From Zunongwangia endophytica (lineage in GTDB: Bacteria; Bacteroidota; Bacteroidia; Flavobacteriales; Flavobacteriaceae), in the NCBI RefSeq assembly GCF_030409505.1, contig NZ_JAUFPZ010000002.1, positions 3,836,001 through 3,900,000 on the forward strand: a DNA stretch of 64,000 nucleotides, in the 5' to 3' direction. This document shows, piece by piece, positions 46,800-63,960 of this stretch. Positions within the stretch are counted from its first letter, which is position 1; every line of letters begins with the position of its first letter. Both the position numbers and the translations under genes were made by a program. The notes beneath the pieces were generated by a model that saw only the letters and a list, made by a program, of their open reading frames with translations, was not told the DNA's origin and did not search any database.

Positions 46800-47567
46800 T
46801 TAAACCGGTCTAACCGTTTTTACAAACTCGTGGATACTGTCTTTCCCGTGCTTGTTTATGTGCTTTATAAATGCACTACCAATAATAGCACCTTTTGCAT
46901 ATTTAGTTGCTTGGTTAAAGGTATCTTCATCACTAATTCCAAATCCTACAATCTGGGGATTCTTCAAATTCATATCAGCAATCCTCTTAAAGTAAGCCTT
47001 AGTATCCTCTCCAAAACCTTTAGTCCCTCCAGTAACACTAGCGGTACTTACCATATAAATAAATCCGTTGGAAACTTCATCGATAAACCGAATACGCTCT
47101 TCGGAAGTCTGTGGCGTGATTAAGAATATATTTTTTAGTCCGTGTTTATCGAATATCGCTTTGTATTCGTCATTATAAACATCTACCGGAAGATCTGGAA
47201 TTATGAGTCCGTCGATTCCTACTTCTTCGCATTTTGCACAAAATTTTTCTACGCCAAATTGAAGTATCGGATTAAAATAACCCATAATGACTAGCGGAAT
47301 AGAAACTTCAGAACGAATATTTTTTAATTGTTCAAAGAGTTTATTGGTGGTCATTCCGCTTTTTAAAGCAATGGTAGAACTTTCCTGAATTGTTGGACCA
47401 TCAGCTAAAGGATCACTAAACGGAAGTCCAATTTCGATAAAATCGATTCCATTTTTTTCTAGATTTTTAATGATTTCTACCGTATCGTTAATTTCAGGAT
47501 ATCCTGAGGTAAAATATATAGAAAGAAGTTTTTTGTCTTCTTTCATTTTTTGATTAATTCTATTCAT
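46800..47567 (-). CDS. trpA: tryptophan synthase alpha chain
   Basis: A 255-aa TIM barrel that cleaves indole-3-glycerol phosphate. Catalytic Glu in FIEIGLPFSDPLADGPTIQ and Asp in IDGLIIPDLPVD are present; the phosphate loop is MVSTASVTGGTKG. It is the last gene of the trpEGDCFBA operon; the 256-nt gap to trpB is filled with repeats. Confidence 0.95.
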   Translation of the reverse strand: MNRINQKMKEDKKLLSIYFTSGYPEINDTVEIIKNLEKNGIDFIEIGLPFSDPLADGPTIQESSTIALKSGMTTNKLFEQLKNIRSEVSIPLVIMGYFNPILQFGVEKFCAKCEEVGIDGLIIPDLPVDVYNDEYKAIFDKHGLKNIFLITPQTSEERIRFIDEVSNGFIYMVSTASVTGGTKGFGEDTKAYFKRIADMNLKNPQIVGFGISDEDTFNQATKYAKGAIIGSAFIKHINKHGKDSIHEFVKTVRPV

Positions 47568-47618
47568 TTTTTTAAGCTTTTGGTTGTTTTGCTTTCAGCT
47601 TTTATTCTCACTTTCTTT

Positions 47619-47669
47619 TTCCATTGATGAAAAAGAAACAAAAAAATCTAGGCTTACAAATCTTGATTT
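47619..47669. repeat. intergenic repeat element D, copy 1 (partial)
   Basis: About 51 nt beginning TTCCATTGATGAAAAAGAAA and containing CTAGGCTTACAAA, almost identical to 50027-50077 (a few mismatches and single-base gaps). It lies in the trpB-trpA spacer, immediately beside repeat copy B. Confidence 0.8.
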
Positions 47670-47680
47670 TAATTTTATCT

Positions 47681-47789
47681 CGTCACCCTGAACTTGATTT
47701 AGGGTCTCATCCAATAATGGCTTCCTACAATTAGTTACGTACCGGTATGAGATTCCGTATCTACCGATAGCTATTGGGACGGAATGACG
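47681..47789. repeat. intergenic inverted-repeat element, copy B
   Basis: The left arm is almost identical to copy A (CGTCACCCTGAACTTGATTT, then AGGGTCTCAT). The right arm (ATGAGATTCCG ... CGGAATGACG) is interrupted by about 20 nt containing CCGATAGCTATTGGGA. It lies in the trpB-trpA spacer. Confidence 0.8.
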
Positions 47790-47824
47790 AAAACACTAAA
47801 ACTTCAGCATTTTAAATTTAATTT

Positions 47825-49006
47825 CTAAAGATCAAAATAATCGATATACGTATTTAGATCTTTATCGCCACGACCAGAAAGATTTACCACGATAATATCA
47901 TCTTCTTTAAATTTTCGATCTTCAAAAATTGCCAGAGCGTGAGAGGTTTCGATTGCAGGAATAATTCCTTCTAATTTTGCCAATTCTAAGCCGGCATCCA
48001 TGGCAGCTTTATCGGTGATTGAAATAAATTCGCCGCGACCGCTTCTAAATAGATTGGCGTGCATTGGGCCAACTCCCGGATAATCTAAACCAGCGGAAAT
48101 CGAATACGGTTCAGTTATTTGTCCGTCTTCAGTTTGCATCAAAAGCGTTTTGCTTCCGTGGATAATTCCTTCTTTTCCTAAAGCCGAAGTTGCTGCACTT
48201 TCTCCGGTATAAATTCCTTTTCCGGCAGCTTCTACCGCAATAATACCAACTTCAGGATTATCTAAATAATGGAAATACGCACCGGCCGCATTACTACCAC
48301 CTCCTACACAAGCCACAACATAATCTGGATTTTCCCGATTTTCTTTTTCTTTAAGTTGAACTTTAATTTCTTCTGAAATTATTGCTTGAAATCTCGCCAC
48401 CATATCTGGATAAGGATGAGGTCCCACCACAGATCCGATAATATAATGCGTGTCTAATGGATTGTTAATCCAATCCCGAATTGCTTCGTTAGTCGCATCT
48501 TTTAGGGTTTTACTACCCGATTTTGCCGGAACTACTTTTGCACCTAGCATCTTCATTCGGGCCACGTTTGGCGCCTGGCGTTCAATATCAATTTCGCCCA
48601 TGTACACAATACACTCAATTCCCATTAGTGCACAAACCGTAGCTGTAGCAACACCATGTTGGCCTGCACCGGTTTCAGCAATTATTCTATTTTTACCAAG
48701 ACGTTTGGCCATTAAAATTTGTCCAACAGTGTTGTTCACTTTATGAGCACCAGTATGACAAAGATCTTCTCGTTTTAAATATACTTTGGTATTGTATTTT
48801 TTACTGAAACGTTCTGCATAGTAAAGCGGAGTAGGGCGACCTACGTAATCTTTTAGAAGCGCTTTAAATTCTTTCTGAAAAGAATCTTCTTTCATAATGT
48901 CTAAATACTGCTTACGCAATTCTTCAACATTAGGATATAGCATTTCAGGAATAAAGGCGCCGCCAAACTCGCCGTAGTATCCTTTTTCGTCTGCTTGATA
49001 TGTCAT
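47825..49006 (-). CDS. trpB: tryptophan synthase beta chain
   Basis: A 393-aa PLP enzyme joining indole and serine. The PLP lysine is in [13 protein letters not shown]; other motifs are [31 protein letters not shown] and [13 protein letters not shown]. It is the standard TrpB1 type that forms an alpha-beta complex with TrpA, encoded next door. Confidence 0.96.
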
Positions 49007-49113
49007 TTTATTTAGCTTTTTAGCTTAGAGCTTTCAGCTTTCAGCTTAATTTTTATTCTTAGTTTATGGTTAACTGTTTTCAGTAAACAGTTTTAACTTT
49101 AATGTTTCCTATT

Positions 49114-49239
49114 TCATCATCCCAGATTTGATCCGGGAGCTCATAAGTTGTGTGAGACGCTGAATCAAGTTCAGCATGACGTTTTACTTGTATTATTTCC
49201 AAATCATCCTTTCTTCACGAGCAATTTTCGATAGGCCAT
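49114..49239. repeat. intergenic element copy C (inverted) plus tail of element D
   Basis: 49114-49181 is related to copies A and B but in the opposite orientation: its left side (CCCAGATTTGATCCGGGAG) matches the right arm of A, and its right side (TGAATCAAGTTCAGCATGACG region) the left arm. 49217-49239 (ACGAGCAATTTTCGATAGGC) matches the end of the D copy at 50162-50184. The 300-nt trpF-trpB spacer holds only this and AT-rich DNA, including a small hairpin AACTGTTT / AAACAGTT near 49070-49092. Confidence 0.75.
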
Positions 49240-49307
49240 TTTTCAATCTTATTCAATATTCAAAATAATTATTCCTCTTTCCATTATCAAATCACCACAT
49301 TGCCACA

Positions 49308-49958
49308 TTATGAAATTATTTCATCAACAAATTGTTTAAGTTTTTTTGCATTTTTAAGTCCGGGTTCATTTTCGAAAGCACTGTTTACATCTATAGCGTA
49401 TAATAAGTGTGCTTTACCGATTTTGCTGAAATAGGTATAAAATTCTTGTAGATCTTCTAATTGCTCTAATCCAATACCTCCACTTAAAAAAAATGGTTTT
49501 TCAGATGGGTAATCTTTAAGCAAAGTCCAGTCGAAAGTTTCGCCATTCCCGCCTTTATGTTTGCCTTTGGTATCGAAAAGGAAATAATCAACGGTGTCTT
49601 CAAAATCTGCTAATTGATTAAAATCGAATTCAGACTTTACGGAAAACACTTTTATAATTTCAATATTCGTTTCTTTTAAAACTGTTTTTAATTCTGCACA
49701 AAACTCAGCCGACTCACCACCATGAAGCTGAATTGCATTTAAATCGAATTCAGTGATTTTATCTAAAATTTCACTGATTTCAGATTCTATAAAAACACCG
49801 GTCTTTTTTATCGAATCTGAAATTTTAGGTATTTCAGTATTAAAAAAACGAGGTGTTTTTTCGTAGAAAATAAAACCCATATAATCTGGGTGCAATGCAG
49901 CGATTTCCTGAATATTTTCAGGATGTTTCATTCCGCATATTTTGAGTTTTAAGTTCAT
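49308..49958 (-). CDS. trpF: phosphoribosylanthranilate isomerase
   Basis: A 216-aa TIM barrel: LKICGMKHPENIQEIAALHPDYMGFIFY with the catalytic Cys, IQLHGGESAEFC, DYFLFDTKGKHKGGNGETFDW with the catalytic Asp, and FFLSGGIGLEQL. It converts phosphoribosylanthranilate to its ribulose isomer. It is a separate protein, not fused to TrpC. Confidence 0.94.
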   Translation of the reverse strand: MNLKLKICGMKHPENIQEIAALHPDYMGFIFYEKTPRFFNTEIPKISDSIKKTGVFIESEISEILDKITEFDLNAIQLHGGESAEFCAELKTVLKETNIEIIKVFSVKSEFDFNQLADFEDTVDYFLFDTKGKHKGGNGETFDWTLLKDYPSEKPFFLSGGIGLEQLEDLQEFYTYFSKIGKAHLLYAIDVNSAFENEPGLKNAKKLKQFVDEIIS

Positions 49959-50026
49959 GGTTTTTAAGTTTATGGTTTACAGTTTAAAGGCTATTATTAT
50001 TTAGCTATTAGTTCGTTTTTTCTTTT

Positions 50027-50184
50027 TTCCATTGCTGAAAAAAGAAACAAAAAAACTAGGCTTACAAACCTTGCTCTAAATTGTACGTTCTGAAGCTAAA
50101 TTTTAGGAATTCGCTACGCTCAAACAGCCTAAAATTTTATGCTTCTTTCACTTCCAATTTTACGAGCAATCTTTGATAGGCCAT
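50027..50184. repeat. intergenic repeat element D, long copy
   Basis: Starts TTCCATTGCTGAAAAAAG (matches 47619-47669). Holds an interrupted inverted repeat (GAAGC..AATTTTAGG at 50092-50107 against CCTAAAATT..GCTTC at 50128-50145) around GAATTCGCTACGCTCAAAC, and ends ACGAGCAATCTTTGATAGGC (matches 49217-49239). It fills much of the 335-nt trpC-trpF spacer, which has no gene. Confidence 0.75.
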
Positions 50185-50293
50185 ATTAACTTCAAAATAA
50201 TTATATTTCTTTTCTAATCTTCAAACCACCGCATCATCAAATCAACAAATCAAATTATCATATCTAACAGCGAAGCGATCTATACTCTATTTA

Positions 50294-51085
50294 CTAACTT
50301 CTAGTTTCTAATTCTTCAATAAAAGCTTTCGCACTTTCACCGGGATTATCGGTTTTCATAAAGTTTTCTCCAATTAAAAAACCTTCGTAACCATATTGTT
50401 TTAAATCGTTGATAGCCGCTACGGAACTGATTCCGCTTTCGCTAACTTTTACAAAATCATCAGGTATTTTTTCTGAAAGATCTTTGCTGGTTTGCGTGCT
50501 AACTTCAAAGGTTTTTAAGTTTCGGTTATTTACACCTAACATATCCAGGCTTGGCATAATCGATTTTTCTAACTCTTCTTGGTTATGCACTTCAAGCAAT
50601 ACATCTAAACCTAGATTTTTAGCAAACTCAGATAATTGTTTAATTTGTGATTGTTCTAAAACAGCCGCAATTAACAGAATAACATCGGCTCCATGAGCCT
50701 TTGCTTCTAATAATTGATATTCGTCAATTACAAACTCTTTTCTTAAAATAGGCATTCTTACTGAAGCTCTGGCGAAAAGCAAATCATCTAAAGAACCTCC
50801 AAAATACTTACCATCGGTTAAAACCGACATTCCACTAACTCCAGCATTTTCGTAACCTTTAGCGACATCTTCTACATTTAAACTGTGGTTAATTACCGAT
50901 TTAGAAGGAGAACGACGTTTATGTTCAGCAATAATTCCGCTTTTACTTTTTCGGAGAGCATTAGCTAAAGAAACAGTTTCTCTTTCAAACAACGCTGAAT
51001 TTTCCAATTGGGAAACCGGAACAACCAGTTTTTTTAAAACCAGTTCTTTATGTTTATCTGCTATTATTTTATCTAGAATATTCAT
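50294..51085 (-). CDS. trpC: indole-3-glycerol phosphate synthase
   Basis: A 263-aa TIM barrel: IIAEHKRRSPSKSVIN with the first catalytic Lys, SVLTDGKYFGGSLDDL, PILRKEFVIDEYQLLEAKAHGADVILLI, LGVNNRNLKTFEV and KVSESGISS. It closes the indole ring by decarboxylation. It follows trpD by 9 nt. Confidence 0.95.
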   Translation of the reverse strand: MNILDKIIADKHKELVLKKLVVPVSQLENSALFERETVSLANALRKSKSGIIAEHKRRSPSKSVINHSLNVEDVAKGYENAGVSGMSVLTDGKYFGGSLDDLLFARASVRMPILRKEFVIDEYQLLEAKAHGADVILLIAAVLEQSQIKQLSEFAKNLGLDVLLEVHNQEELEKSIMPSLDMLGVNNRNLKTFEVSTQTSKDLSEKIPDDFVKVSESGISSVAAINDLKQYGYEGFLIGENFMKTDNPGESAKAFIEELETRS

Positions 51086-51094
51086 AAGTTCTTA

Positions 51095-52084
51095 TTAGCT
51101 TAATTCTTGTAATTTTTTTAGTGCCTGTAAGGCTTTACCAGATTTGATAGAATCTTTAGCAGCATAAAATCCTTCTCGAGGTGTGATACCTTTTGCTGTA
51201 GAAATTGCCATTCCCGCATTAGCACAGACTACATTTTCCTGAGCTTCGGTACCTTGTCCTTTTAAGATATTTACTAAAATCATTGCTGAATTTTCTATAG
51301 TTCCGCCACCGTAAATTTCTTCTTGTTTTAATTTCTTAACTCCAAAATCACTAGGTTTTATTATACTTTCGGTGTTATTAGAAATTACTTTAGTATCGCT
51401 TGTTAACGAAATCTCGTCGTAACCATCTAATGCATATAAGATACTGAAATTTTTATCGGTGTTTTGATAAAGATACCCATACATTCTAGCTAATTCTAAA
51501 TTGAAAACACCCACTAACTGATTCTTCGGAAATGCAGGATTCACCATAGGACCCAACATGTTGAAAAAGGTTTTCACAGCTAAGCTTTTACGAATAGGAG
51601 CAACGTTTTTCATGGCTGGGTGAAATAGCGGCGCATGTAAAACACAGATTCCTGCTTTATCGATACATTTTTCTAAAAAGTCGGGGCGATTGCTGAATTT
51701 GATACCCAAATGTTCCATAGCATTTGAACTTCCGCTTACTGAAGAAACACCATAATTACCATGTTTTGCGACATGAACTCCGGCACCAGCAGTAACAAAA
51801 GATGAAGTTGTAGATATATTGAAGGTATTTTTACCATCGCCTCCCGTACCACAAAGATCGATAGGATCGTAAGCGCTTAGATCGATAGCTACACAAAGTT
51901 CTAGAAGTGCGTCCCTAAAACCTTCTAACTCGGCAATAGTTACACTTCGCATCATGTAAACGGTTAGAAAAGCAGCAATTTGACTTTCGTTATATTCTCC
52001 ATCTGATATATTGAATAAAGCTTGTTTAGCTTCTTCTTTACTGATGGTTTCGTGGTTAATTAACCTATTGAGTAATGCTTTCAT
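51095..52084 (-). CDS. trpD: anthranilate phosphoribosyltransferase
   Basis: A 329-aa enzyme with the glycine loop DLCGTGGDGKNTFNISTTSSFV, the PRPP site HGNYGVSSVSGSSNAMEHLG and NMLGPMVNPA. It transfers PRPP ribose-phosphate onto anthranilate. It is not fused to the TrpG glutaminase, which is a separate gene 78 nt upstream. Confidence 0.95.
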   Translation of the reverse strand: MKALLNRLINHETISKEEAKQALFNISDGEYNESQIAAFLTVYMMRSVTIAELEGFRDALLELCVAIDLSAYDPIDLCGTGGDGKNTFNISTTSSFVTAGAGVHVAKHGNYGVSSVSGSSNAMEHLGIKFSNRPDFLEKCIDKAGICVLHAPLFHPAMKNVAPIRKSLAVKTFFNMLGPMVNPAFPKNQLVGVFNLELARMYGYLYQNTDKNFSILYALDGYDEISLTSDTKVISNNTESIIKPSDFGVKKLKQEEIYGGGTIENSAMILVNILKGQGTEAQENVVCANAGMAISTAKGITPREGFYAAKDSIKSGKALQALKKLQELS

Positions 52085-52162
52085 TATATAAGAAATGCTC
52101 CGTTAAAAAACGGAAGATAAATGTATATGTTTTGAAAATTAGATGTTTGCTTCGTTTTTACT

Positions 52163-52735
52163 TTATGAATCTGCTTTTACCCAATTTTCGATCATTTTCT
52201 TTCCTTCTGGAGTTAAAACTGATTCCGGATGAAACTGAACGCCGCGAACATCATATTCTCTATGGCGTAGTGACATGATTTGTCCTTTATCATCAAAAGC
52301 GGTAGCTTCCAAAGCATCTGGTAAATCTTTTAAAACTACCCAAGAATGATAACGACCAACTTTTATCTTTTTATCTAAACCAGCAAATAAGGGTTCATCT
52401 TCTACTACAATATCTATATCTGTAGCAATACCATGATATACCGAGTCTAGATTCCCTAAAGTACCGCCGTAAACTTCGCCGATGGCTTGCTGGCCTAAGC
52501 AAACACCAAAAATACTTTTGGTTGCTCCGTATTTTTCTATAATCGGTTTTAAAAGTCCGGCTTCTGAAGGGATACCAGGACCGGGAGACAATAATATTTT
52601 ATCGAAATTTTCTACAAAATCGATATCTAATTGATCGTTTCTTCTTACTGTAACGTCGCAATCTAGATCTTCTAGATAATGTACCAGGTTGTACACAAAC
52701 GAATCGTAATTATCTATAACTAATACTTTTTTCAT
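52163..52735 (-). CDS. trpG: anthranilate synthase glutaminase subunit
   Basis: A 190-aa class I glutamine amidotransferase: VLVIDNYDSFVYNLVHYLE, LSPGPGIPSEAG, the nucleophile Cys in FGVCLGQQAIGEVYG and the His-Glu dyad in GVQFHPESVLT. It supplies ammonia to TrpE. A role shared with p-aminobenzoate synthesis (PabA) is possible, as in other bacteria. Confidence 0.93.
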   Translation of the reverse strand: MKKVLVIDNYDSFVYNLVHYLEDLDCDVTVRRNDQLDIDFVENFDKILLSPGPGIPSEAGLLKPIIEKYGATKSIFGVCLGQQAIGEVYGGTLGNLDSVYHGIATDIDIVVEDEPLFAGLDKKIKVGRYHSWVVLKDLPDALEATAFDDKGQIMSLRHREYDVRGVQFHPESVLTPEGKKMIENWVKADS

Positions 52736-52842
52736 TTTCTATCCCTCATTGAGGTTTTTATTGTTCGGTAGAATTTCCCGAAATTTTAATTATTCTCGAT
52801 TTTCATACTCTTAGGTTTCCCTAGAGTTTGTGGATCTGTTTG

Positions 52843-52940
52843 CGTTAGGGATTGAGGTATTGTTGGAGCTCTTTTTAAACGAGTTAGCGTTTAAAAAAGC
52901 GACTACCGAAAGCCCGACCACCCGTTAGGGAGGTAACGCC
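52843..52940. repeat. hairpin-rich intergenic element E in the trpE-trpG spacer
   Basis: Runs from GCGTTAGGGATTGAGGTATT through a 10-bp perfect stem (TTTTTAAACG / CGTTTAAAAA at 52872-52897) to CCCGTTAGGGAGGTAACGCC, so GTTAGGGA appears near both ends. It ends 1 nt before the trpE stop and lies inside the operon. Only one copy is in the window, so its repeat nature is inferred from its form. Confidence 0.5.
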
Positions 52941-52941
52941 A

Positions 52942-54339
52942 TTATTCAACATTTTCAGCTATTTCTAATGCGTTTGTTAGTGCGCCTAGTTTGTTATATA
53001 CTTCTTGTAATTCGTTTTCGTTTTTAGATTCTGAAACGACACCGGCACCTGCCTGATAGTGCAAGTGGTGATTTTTACTTACAAAAGATCTGATGATGAT
53101 GGCGTGGTTGAAGTTTCCGTGGAAATCCATAAATCCTATCGCACCGCCGTAGGCATCTCTATTTACATTTTCGCATTCTTCGATAAGCTTCATTGCGCTG
53201 TGTTTTGGTGCGCCACTTAACGTTCCTGCCGGGAATGTATCGGCAACGACCTGCATTGTCGAGGTATCTGGATTTTTTGTTCCGGTAACTTTACTCACCA
53301 GGTGAATAACGTGAGAGAAAAACTGAATTTCGCGATAGGTTTCTACCTTTACATTGCTTCCGTTTCGACTAAGGTCGTTACGAGCAAGATCTACCAACAT
53401 TACATGTTCTGCGTTTTCTTTCTCGTCGGCACTTAATTGTTTGGCAATTTCGGCATCTTTTTCATCGTTTCCGGTACGTTTAAAAGTTCCGGCAATAGGG
53501 TGAATTTCAGCCTGACCTTCGTCTACAACTAATTGCGCTTCTGGAGAGCTTCCGAAGATTTTAAAGTTTCCGTAGTCAAAATAGAATAGGTAAGGCGAGG
53601 GGTTTATGCTTCGTAAAGCGCGGTATACGTTAAATTCGTCTCCTTTAAACTTTTGAGAAAATCGTCTGGAAAGTACAATCTGAAAAACATCTCCGCGAAA
53701 ACAGTGTTTTTTACCGAATTTCACTTGTTCGATAAACTCGTCGTCGGATAAATTACTTTGGGTTTCGCCGTCGCGATAAAAATTATAGGTTGAGAAATTC
53801 TTTACGCTAATAAGCTGCTCGATTTCTGCAATTTTATTGTCACCATCGTACGAATGGTTAAAAATAAAAGCTTGATTATTGAAATGATTTATTGCAATAA
53901 TATTTTGATAGACCGCATAATACATATCCGGTAATTCTAGATCGCCTTTTTTCTTTTTGATTTCAATATCTTCAAAATAACGTACACCATCGTAAGAGAT
54001 ATAGCCGAAGAGACCGTTATTTATAAATTTGAAATCTAAATCTTCAGTATCGAACAATTTCCCAAAATCCTGAATTTTATTAGGAATGTTGATGTCTGAA
54101 GTAATTTTTGTCGTAGTAGAAGTTCCATCAGGAAATTCCTCAATTATTTCTTCATTTTGTACTCTTATAGATGCAATTGGATTACAGCAGATATAAGAAA
54201 AACTGTTTTTATTTGCATGATAATCGCTACTTTCTAGTAGAAGACTATTTGGATATTTATCGCGTACTTTTAAATATACGCTTACCGGAGTAATCGTATC
54301 TGCAAGTAATTTTTTGTGATTGGTTTTAAGTTTGTACAT
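52942..54339 (-). CDS. trpE: anthranilate synthase component I
   Basis: A 465-aa chorismate-utilising enzyme. The N-terminal feedback region has the Trp-binding LLESSDYHANKNSFSYIC, a form of the LLES motif, so inhibition by tryptophan is expected. The catalytic half has FQIVLSRRFSQ, YLFYFDYGNFKIFGSSPE, HPIAGTFKRTGNDEKDAE, DLARNDLSRNG and FPAGTLSGAPKHSAM. It is the first structural gene after the attenuator, 12 nt below the terminator's T run. Confidence 0.95.
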   Translation of the reverse strand: MYKLKTNHKKLLADTITPVSVYLKVRDKYPNSLLLESSDYHANKNSFSYICCNPIASIRVQNEEIIEEFPDGTSTTTKITSDINIPNKIQDFGKLFDTEDLDFKFINNGLFGYISYDGVRYFEDIEIKKKKGDLELPDMYYAVYQNIIAINHFNNQAFIFNHSYDGDNKIAEIEQLISVKNFSTYNFYRDGETQSNLSDDEFIEQVKFGKKHCFRGDVFQIVLSRRFSQKFKGDEFNVYRALRSINPSPYLFYFDYGNFKIFGSSPEAQLVVDEGQAEIHPIAGTFKRTGNDEKDAEIAKQLSADEKENAEHVMLVDLARNDLSRNGSNVKVETYREIQFFSHVIHLVSKVTGTKNPDTSTMQVVADTFPAGTLSGAPKHSAMKLIEECENVNRDAYGGAIGFMDFHGNFNHAIIIRSFVSKNHHLHYQAGAGVVSESKNENELQEVYNKLGALTNALEIAENVE

Positions 54340-54351
54340 ATTTAAGGCGAA

Positions 54352-54389
54352 TTGAAATAAAAAAAGGCTTGTCGTGAGACAAGCCTTTT
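54352..54389 (-). terminator. trp attenuator terminator
   Basis: A perfect 12-bp stem (AAAAGGCTTGTC / GACAAGCCTTTT) with the 4-nt loop TCAC is followed on the minus strand by TTTATTT, just ahead of trpE. The segment CTCACGA (minus strand, 54372-54378) covering the loop and the start of the 3' arm is the complement of TCGTGAG in the leader ORF (54421-54427), which allows a competing antiterminator. Confidence 0.88.
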
Positions 54390-54416
54390 GGTTATATATT
54401 ATTATACAATGGCAGT

Positions 54417-54479
54417 TTAGCTCACGAAGTTTGCACGTAAGTTAGACCACCACCAAGTATTTGCTATTCTGTTTTTCAT
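54417..54479 (-). CDS. trpL: trp operon leader peptide, three consecutive Trp codons
   Basis: A 20-codon frame with ATG at 54479 encodes MKNRIANTWWWSNLRA followed by NFVS and a TAA stop. The three adjacent TGG codons (54447-54455) precede a terminator and the trpE gene. Chance occurrence of WWW in such a place is very unlikely. It should act as a tryptophan-sensing stall site: a ribosome waiting on Trp codons leaves TCGTGAG free to pair with the terminator, while a ribosome at the stop codon covers it. Confidence 0.9.
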   Translation of the reverse strand: MKNRIANTWWWSNLRANFVS

Positions 54480-54484
54480 CTTTT

Positions 54485-54515
54485 CAAAGATAGTTATGAT
54501 ATTTGAAAGGACAAA
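54485..54515 (-). promoter_or_regulatory. trp operon promoter
   Basis: On the minus strand TTTG (54515-54512), a 19-nt spacer and TATCTTTG (54492-54485) fit the Bacteroidetes consensus exactly. The ATG of the leader peptide begins 5 nt after the -7 box, so the transcript should be leaderless or nearly so. Confidence 0.8.
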
Positions 54516-61544: not shown

Positions 61545-61870
61545 GTCTATATATTATAGTCGTTATTATAGGTAGCAAAGATAATAGTTGTTATTGTTTG
61601 CGCAATACTACTATTTAGTATTTTATGGGTGTTTCCCTATAATTGCAATTATAGGGATCGGGCTATCCACTATATCTTGGCGCTACTATTATAGATGAAA
61701 TTTATTTTTGAGACGTAAAACTTCATTGAGAGGACATGTTTATCTGTAAAAATTATAGCGCCAAGGATGCCGTTGCTATCCCTAACACAATTTTAGTTTT
61801 CTTAAATAGTTGTGTATTAAAATCTTGAAATCTAATTTTAAATTATTTTTAAATTTTGTTTATTTTTTCA
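61545..61870. other. spacer between thrS and the rRNA promoters; dyads only
   Basis: No gene is visible. It contains a 22-bp perfect palindrome at 61635-61656 (half site CCCTATAATTG). It also contains a long-range inverted repeat, CTTGGCGCTA at 61676-61685 against TAGCGCCAAG at 61756-61765, separated by 70 nt. GGGAT and ATCCC motifs recur around them, as in flavobacterial intergenic repeats. Confidence 0.6.

Positions 61871-62427: not shown

Positions 62428-63960
<1,533 letters not shown>

Follow-up and report, generated by a model that had tools for sequence, protein, structure and literature searches.

Leader anatomy

What kind of control element separates the promoter of the Zunongwangia endophytica trp operon from trpE, and has such an element been described before? 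The sequence in question lies on the minus strand of the window, by which we mean the whole 64,000-nucleotide stretch of DNA that was analysed. An earlier note on this DNA had read here, in order, a promoter, a 20-codon ORF with three consecutive Trp codons, a 12-bp terminator and trpE, and had pointed to two complementary segments, TCGTGAG (54427-54421) and CTCACGA (54378-54372). We find both segments where they were placed, and every coordinate of the four-part arrangement is correct. The features of the locus are as follows:

54485..54515, minus strand: Bacteroidota-type promoter, TTTG-N19-TATCTTTG, read from the sequence
54515-54512, minus strand: TTTG element of the promoter, followed by a 19-nt spacer
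54492-54485, minus strand: promoter box TATCTTTG, 5 nt before the leader ATG
54417..54479, minus strand: leader ORF MKNRIANTWWWSNLRANFVS, 20 codons, ATG at 54479 and stop codon TAA at 54419-54417
54447..54455, minus strand: three Trp codons in a row (WWW), the proposed sensor
54436..54441, minus strand: protector strand CTTACG, with partner CGTGAG; predicted pairing probability (P) 0.99-1.00 without a ribosome
54421..54427, minus strand: putative antiterminator strand TCGTGAG, from conservation, spacing and nascent folding
54372..54378, minus strand: putative antiterminator target CTCACGA, from conservation and folding
54362..54389, minus strand: intrinsic terminator AAAAGGCTTGTC-TCAC-GACAAGCCTTTT, 12 bp, with a T-rich tail to about 54355
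54378..54499, minus strand: RF01692 Bacteroid-trp match, 64.4 bits (cut-off 49)
52942..54339, minus strand: trpE, the first gene after the leader (PF00425 and PF04715; ATG at 54339)
52163-52735, minus strand: trpG, from general Pfam family and operon position
51095-52084, minus strand: trpD, from general Pfam family and operon position
50294-51085, minus strand: trpC, from ORF and Pfam
49308-49958, minus strand: trpF, from ORF and Pfam
47825-49006, minus strand: trpB, from general Pfam family and operon position
46800-47567, minus strand: trpA, from ORF and Pfam

Two of the features by which an attenuator is recognised are immediately visible, namely a short ORF carrying consecutive codons for the amino acid made by the pathway (WWW within 20 codons) and an intrinsic terminator before the first structural gene (54389-54362 plus the T run). 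The target CTCACGA begins with the final base of the terminator 5' arm, spans the four-base loop and runs two bases into the 3' arm. The 128-nt leader is predicted to fold with an energy of -35.7 kcal/mol (z = -4.81), and none of 200 shuffled sequences is as stable. Downstream, the operon runs in the order trpEGDCFBA (46800..54339, minus strand).

Relationship to a described RNA family

The leader matches RF01692 Bacteroid-trp (Rfam release 15) over the full length of the model (positions 1-131 of 131) and, lying directly before trpEGDCFBA, has the place upstream of tryptophan biosynthesis genes that characterizes the family. By sequence and position, the element is a member of the already described RF01692 family, which settles its identity. 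A comparative study of attenuators was reportedly made by Lopatovskaya et al. in 2010, as cited by PMC4833913. Whilst the earlier note was unsure whether a Bacteroidetes form had been described, the family was catalogued and published in 2010: a passage by Weinberg et al. lists Bacteroid-trp as a leader RNA before trp genes in Bacteroidetes (PMC2864571), which is the same element as that seen here. In Flavobacterium psychrophilum, Bacteroid-trp is stated to be conserved upstream of the trp operon and is likened to the E. coli leader (in a passage of PMC6414381), and strong clues of leader-peptide attenuation are likewise noted upstream of the amino-acid operons of that species (in a passage of PMC9723704). 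These passages on F. psychrophilum do not describe the antiterminator pairing or its spacing, and the RF01692 model itself stops in the terminator 5' arm, so that the exchange between antiterminator and terminator falls outside it. Measured against the open-access literature, the 15-20 nt spacing and the breadth of occurrence beyond RF01692 that we set out below are modest additions, which we do not claim to be unreported.

The Rfam scan also places a Flavo-1 RNA (RF01705) at window positions 61652-61790 on the minus strand (44.1 bits, cut-off 42) and a 16S rRNA gene at 62431-63958 on the plus strand.

Conservation of Trp-codon leaders before trpE

We scanned for ORFs of 6-40 codons that contain WW or WxW and are followed within 110 nt by a hairpin plus T run, the search being anchored on the ORF. 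On both strands of the 64-kb window, the only match is the present leader. The near set to which the scan was applied has 110 loci, namely the top 30 trpE loci from 60 relatives and the 80 best among 514 confirmed loci. This sample is biased to close relatives; removal of the duplicate upstreams L006, L033 and L037 left 107 upstreams of about 400 nt each. A WW/WxW ORF with a terminator is found in 98 of these 107 in the sense orientation and in none in the antisense orientation. Tripled Trp with a terminator occurs in 93 of the 107, against 3 of 107 for the best other tripled residue; in a wider set of 80 upstreams (see below) the corresponding figures are 45 for tripled Trp and 6 for the next-best residue.

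Of the nine near upstreams missed by the scan, there are seven in which an inserted GIY-YIG-type ORF separates trpE from the leader and terminator, both of which lie farther upstream. L058 has a WWW ORF and lacks a terminator by the scan's rule, and L098 has the terminator alone, at a locus that holds little upstream sequence. The inserted ORFs, of 71-101 aa, stand between the trp terminator and trpE (L034, L035, L036, L072, L083, L088 and L102), with leader and terminator intact upstream in all seven; PF01541 is confirmed in two of them (L034 and L083). Such an ORF would come under Trp control if it is co-transcribed.

Some other bacteria regulate trp genes by TRAP-like, T-box or riboswitch leaders. 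With regulation of this kind established elsewhere, the present leader might be one that binds tryptophan or a protein, its Trp codons being incidental. Within the window no match above the Rfam cut-off was obtained to any T-box or riboswitch family (for the T-box, the gathering cut-off), and the enterobacterial-type Trp_leader, the proteobacterial Trp leader family RF00513, is not among the Rfam matches. The 128-nt leader contains one UAG and one GAG, with no repeat run, and a TRAP-type series of about eleven such repeats was not found in it; a TRAP-regulated trp leader is described as having 11 GAG/UAG repeats (in a passage of PMC4027176). Trp is moreover the only residue whose runs are enriched, at 93 of 107 against 3 of 107 for the next best, and we regard a binding leader as exceedingly unlikely.

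A different origin for the terminator was considered, in which it marks the end of the transcript of a YceI-like gene that lies upstream on the same strand, with the leader ORF present by chance. Between that gene and the leader there is a separate hairpin with a T run, aatcccgtaatct-CCCCTAC-agattacgggatt, which is itself followed by promoter-like sequence, and the leader ORF, the Trp run and the pairing are all conserved. We give an origin of the terminator in the YceI-like transcript virtually no credence.

Promoter and 5' end of the leader RNA

A TAnnTTTG box, which is given as the flavobacterial -7 box in a passage of PMC9723704, is found in 95 of the 98 near leaders, no more than 60 nt before the leader start. 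Its distance to the ATG is 5 nt in 30 of the 98, with a second mode at 16-18 nt. A -7 box 5 nt from the ATG would imply a leaderless or nearly leaderless RNA; passages of PMC9723704 put leaderless mRNAs at 5.5% of those mapped in F. psychrophilum and describe Bacteroidota messages as being without Shine-Dalgarno sequences. The suggestion that the leader has essentially no 5' UTR thus probably holds for this locus, where the box is 5 nt from the ATG, but a compact 5' end is not universal, the distance being 16-18 nt in 23 of the 98 near leaders.

Spacing of the antiterminator strand

In 91 of the 98 near leaders there is an exact pairing of at least 6 bases that touches the terminator loop, and the other seven have fewer than 6 exact pairs. 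The start of the pairing lies 15-20 nt after the last Trp codon in all 91. Relative to the stop codon, the start ranges from -13 to +6 nt, and in 12 of the 91 it is at or after the first base beyond the ORF stop. This combination of a variable distance to the stop codon and a constant distance to the Trp codons implies that TCGTGA is maintained as RNA and not as codons. The comparison suggests that the place of the antiterminator is tied to the Trp codons, in keeping with the needs of a ribosome footprint. The near-constant 15-20 nt amounts to a testable rule, in which the design depends on the ribosome footprint rather than on where the stop codon lies.

Conservation and covariation of the proposed antiterminator and the terminator

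Pairing was assessed in an alignment of 104 leaders that was thinned by similarity to 79. The six core pairs TCGTGA/TCACGA are paired in 96.8% of cells, a value reached by none of 500 shuffles (mean 95.8%), and pairing falls to 2.7-56.5% when the partner is slid by 1-3 columns. Likewise, none of the 500 shuffles reaches the antiterminator covariation score, the number of pairs with double changes or the number of cells with them, and 2 of 500 reach the number of antiterminator pair types. Certain slides come close to or exceed the true register in covariation: at a slide of -2, double changes appear in 3 pairs and 6 cells, compared with 3 pairs and 4 cells in the true register, and the slide of +3 gives a covariation score of 0.064 against 0.069. 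Row-by-row inspection leaves double changes in register at 2 of the 6 antiterminator pairs. One is G:C to A:U, shared by two Dokdonia rows (L068 and L094) in which it may have arisen only once; the other is A:U to U:A in L067. A count of three compensated pairs was rejected, the C:G in L164 being an accident of register; read directly, L164 pairs TCGCGA with TCGCGA in its own register, and L170 pairs GCGAG with CTCGC. We consider the antiterminator covariation real but thin, and the case for this pairing rests mainly on conservation, spacing and the wider set. Alignment of trpE upstream regions, as proposed in the earlier note, accordingly bears out conservation of the WWW run and of the complementary pair, but the compensatory changes are confined to two pairs of six.

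The terminator is the more strongly marked of the two structures, being paired in 99.8% of cells across the 79 leaders. Compensatory changes affect 6 of its 12 pairs, and double changes occur in 22 cells, a number that no slide reaches. The conserved hairpin bears on the possibility that control is exerted not by transcription termination but by passage of the ribosome, with translational coupling or reinitiation at trpE. Leader ORFs that lie a short distance before genes may raise translation through reinitiation (in a passage of PMC4833913, which gives a peak distance between leader gene and structural gene of 11-14 bp in Bacteroidetes). The distance from leader stop to trpE is 77 nt here, with a strong terminator in between, and the hairpin and T run are conserved with compensatory changes, all of which makes coupling at trpE very improbable as the mode of control.

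Outside the antiterminator target, the terminator sequence is nearly fixed, with columns 86:105, 85:106 and 84:107 identical in 78, 77 and 74 of the 79 leaders. The pattern GCTTGTC-loop-GACAAGC is present in 17 of 36 genomes searched; G006 has one extra site, and in G007 the sole site is away from trpE. The near-fixed sequence is not required by attenuation alone. In 15 of the 17 pattern-bearing genomes the pattern occurs only at the trp leader, next to trpE, and this sole occurrence, together with the near-invariance of the hairpin, raises the idea that the terminated leader RNA, of about 120-125 nt and starting at or next to the AUG, might have a second, rnTrpL-like function in trans. According to passages of PMC7298713, the trpL leader RNA of Sinorhizobium meliloti also starts with the ATG of the leader ORF, and the terminated RNA (rnTrpL) and the peptide act in trans in that organism. 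We judge a trans function here conceivable but unlikely.

Folding of the nascent leader

We folded the nascent leader in six states, one without a ribosome and five with a ribosome placed at the start, on Trp codon 1, 2 or 3, or at the stop. All bases up to the 3' edge of the ribosome were barred from pairing, and this edge was assumed to lie 12 nt from the A-site codon's first base. At RNA lengths of 108-110, a ribosome on any Trp codon gives an antiterminator P of 0.96-0.98. At the same lengths, the protector hairpin prevails without a ribosome (P 0.99, antiterminator 0.00) and with a ribosome at the start (P 0.97-0.99, antiterminator 0.01-0.03), and neither structure forms with the ribosome at the stop. 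By length 113, the antiterminator P has changed to 0.06, 0.45 and 0.74 for a ribosome on Trp codons 1, 2 and 3, respectively. From length 114 the terminator is favored in all six states, and in the full-length leader its P is 0.96-0.97 whatever the ribosome state. The antiterminator is thus lost once 7-8 of the 12 bases of the terminator 3' arm are out.

In a control with E. coli trpL, for which best structures only were considered, the antiterminator is confined to the stalled states and to lengths at which the terminator is still incomplete; it is the best fold up to length 130, with the T run starting at 134. We rejected equilibrium folding as a proof of switching, the terminator winning at full length in all six states, as it likewise does in E. 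coli trpL. It follows from this result that, on these models, switching both here and in E. coli trpL would have to be kinetic and co-transcriptional, and the earlier loss of the antiterminator than in E. coli suggests that the time window for switching may be narrower here. An alternative antiterminator that a stalled ribosome permits, a further defining feature of an attenuator, is accordingly found in silico, from nascent folds and conservation, in a kinetic and not an equilibrium sense. Folding with and without a ribosome footprint, also proposed in the earlier note, therefore gives the expected antiterminator in nascent RNA with the ribosome on Trp codons, but always the terminator at full length.

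A model for control of the trp operon

What the analysis shows is the anatomy of the leader, its membership of the family, its conservation and spacing, a number of compensatory changes, and its behaviour when folded in silico. From comparative sequence and modelled folds, we consider it very probable that the element is a ribosome-mediated transcription attenuator of the trp operon and a member of RF01692. In this model, the RNA would start on the leader AUG or, at most, a few bases away from it. With ample charged tRNA-Trp, the ribosome would pass the three Trp codons, reach the stop codon and cover TCGTGAG, whereupon the 12-bp terminator would form and transcription would stop before trpE. 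Under Trp shortage, the ribosome would wait on a Trp codon and cover the base of the protector hairpin, leaving TCGTGAG free to pair with CTCACGA in the emerging terminator loop; this pairing would delay closure of the hairpin while RNA polymerase passes the T run, with readthrough into trpE as the predicted outcome. If the leader is not translated, the protector hairpin would hide TCGTGAG and the terminator would form by default.

The proposal that the leader works by ribosome stalling is strengthened by conservation of the Trp run and the complementary pair, by the fixed spacing, and by the nascent folds with ribosome footprints; its proposed likeness to E. coli trpL is supported by the trpL control, which folds alike with footprints. 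The two leaders share Trp codons, a protector hairpin, an antiterminator, a terminator, and their in silico response to footprints. They differ in sequence and in having three Trp codons here against two in E. coli; in addition, the present 5' UTR is probably very short or absent, and the terminator loop is the main partner of the present antiterminator strand.

Trp leaders across the Bacteroidota

The wider set comprises 80 hand-chosen upstreams (L144-L223), of which 8 are from the window's own family (L144, L145, L160, L164, L165, L166, L169 and L170), 60 from the same class or order, and 12 from other classes, picked from 76 matching genomes. Contig ends shorten L194 (168 nt), L211 (344 nt) and L168 (407 nt), and 40 of the 80 loci have about 600 nt or less upstream, too short a stretch to reveal a leader that precedes a longer operon. 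A WW/WxW leader with a terminator is present in 72 of the 80 upstreams (71 with an ATG start) and in none of the 80 antisense. Outside the window's family the count is 65 of 72, with 57 among the 60 loci of the same class or order plus 8 among the 12 from other classes; as these 12 were hand-picked, they give no more than an outline of how deep the trait goes in the phylum. L167 and L168 each carry a tandem pair of WWW leaders before trpE, every one of these leaders having a separate terminator, which is possibly a two-step attenuator.

In all, the wider set contains 74 leaders, two loci having two each. Their pairing sequences vary, as in TGAACAG/CTGTTCA and CTCAGTGA/TCACTGAG. The longest exact loop pairing averages 4.55 bases against 2.95 when partners are permuted, with none of 5000 permutations as high, which is not a strict probability as the 74 include relatives; duplex energy averages -12.0 kcal/mol against -8.7 kcal/mol permuted (sd 0.3). 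Pairings of at least 6 bases occur in 27 of 74 own pairs and 516 of 5402 mismatched pairs, and the start lies 15-22 nt after the last Trp codon in 24 of the 27 own pairings, compared with 36% of the 516 mismatched. Exact loop pairing of at least 6 bases was not found in 47 of the 74 wider leaders, nor of at least 4 in 13 of them, and only 20% of the 74 have their own partner within the top 5% of duplexes.

RF01692 reaches its cut-off in 6 of the 80 wider upstreams (L166, L169, L209, L213, L214 and L215), of which L169 is missed by the WW/WxW scan. At L209, L213, L214 and L215 the leader is about 1.4 kb before trpE and probably precedes a trpB-first operon. In a separate sample of the phylum, RF01692 is above cut-off in 28 of 296 genomes, and at E up to 0.001 in 30 of 296. 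These comparisons suggest that RF01692 at its cut-off misses most trp leaders of the wider sample. Much likelier, in our view, than a trans function of the leader RNA is an old origin in the Bacteroidota for trp attenuation with a footprint-spaced antiterminator, most of it lying outside RF01692. The analysis supplies comparative support for the antiterminator step in this phylum.

Candidate leaders before other amino-acid genes

Further candidates were seen before other amino-acid genes. No clear leader was seen in the region upstream of ilvD. In the Z. endophytica genome, the locus upstream of hisG (L225, G000:C2 near 1410987) has a TAnnTTTG box, a His leader, MRTIQLHHHHFYYCAHAR, and a terminator-like hairpin; the longest exact pairing between leader and terminator is 5 bases. 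For a thrA-like gene, L230, 183 nt before its first in-frame ATG, shows a possible Thr/Ile leader that ends MIITRTIITPLG, accompanied by a short CCCCTTTGGGG hairpin. Before a prephenate dehydratase gene of the Z. endophytica genome there is a Phe-rich leader, MNHLITWNTFFYFYFYFKE, with a terminator-like hairpin (L226, G000:C2 near 2299846) and a 6-base pairing, AGATCG/CGATCT.
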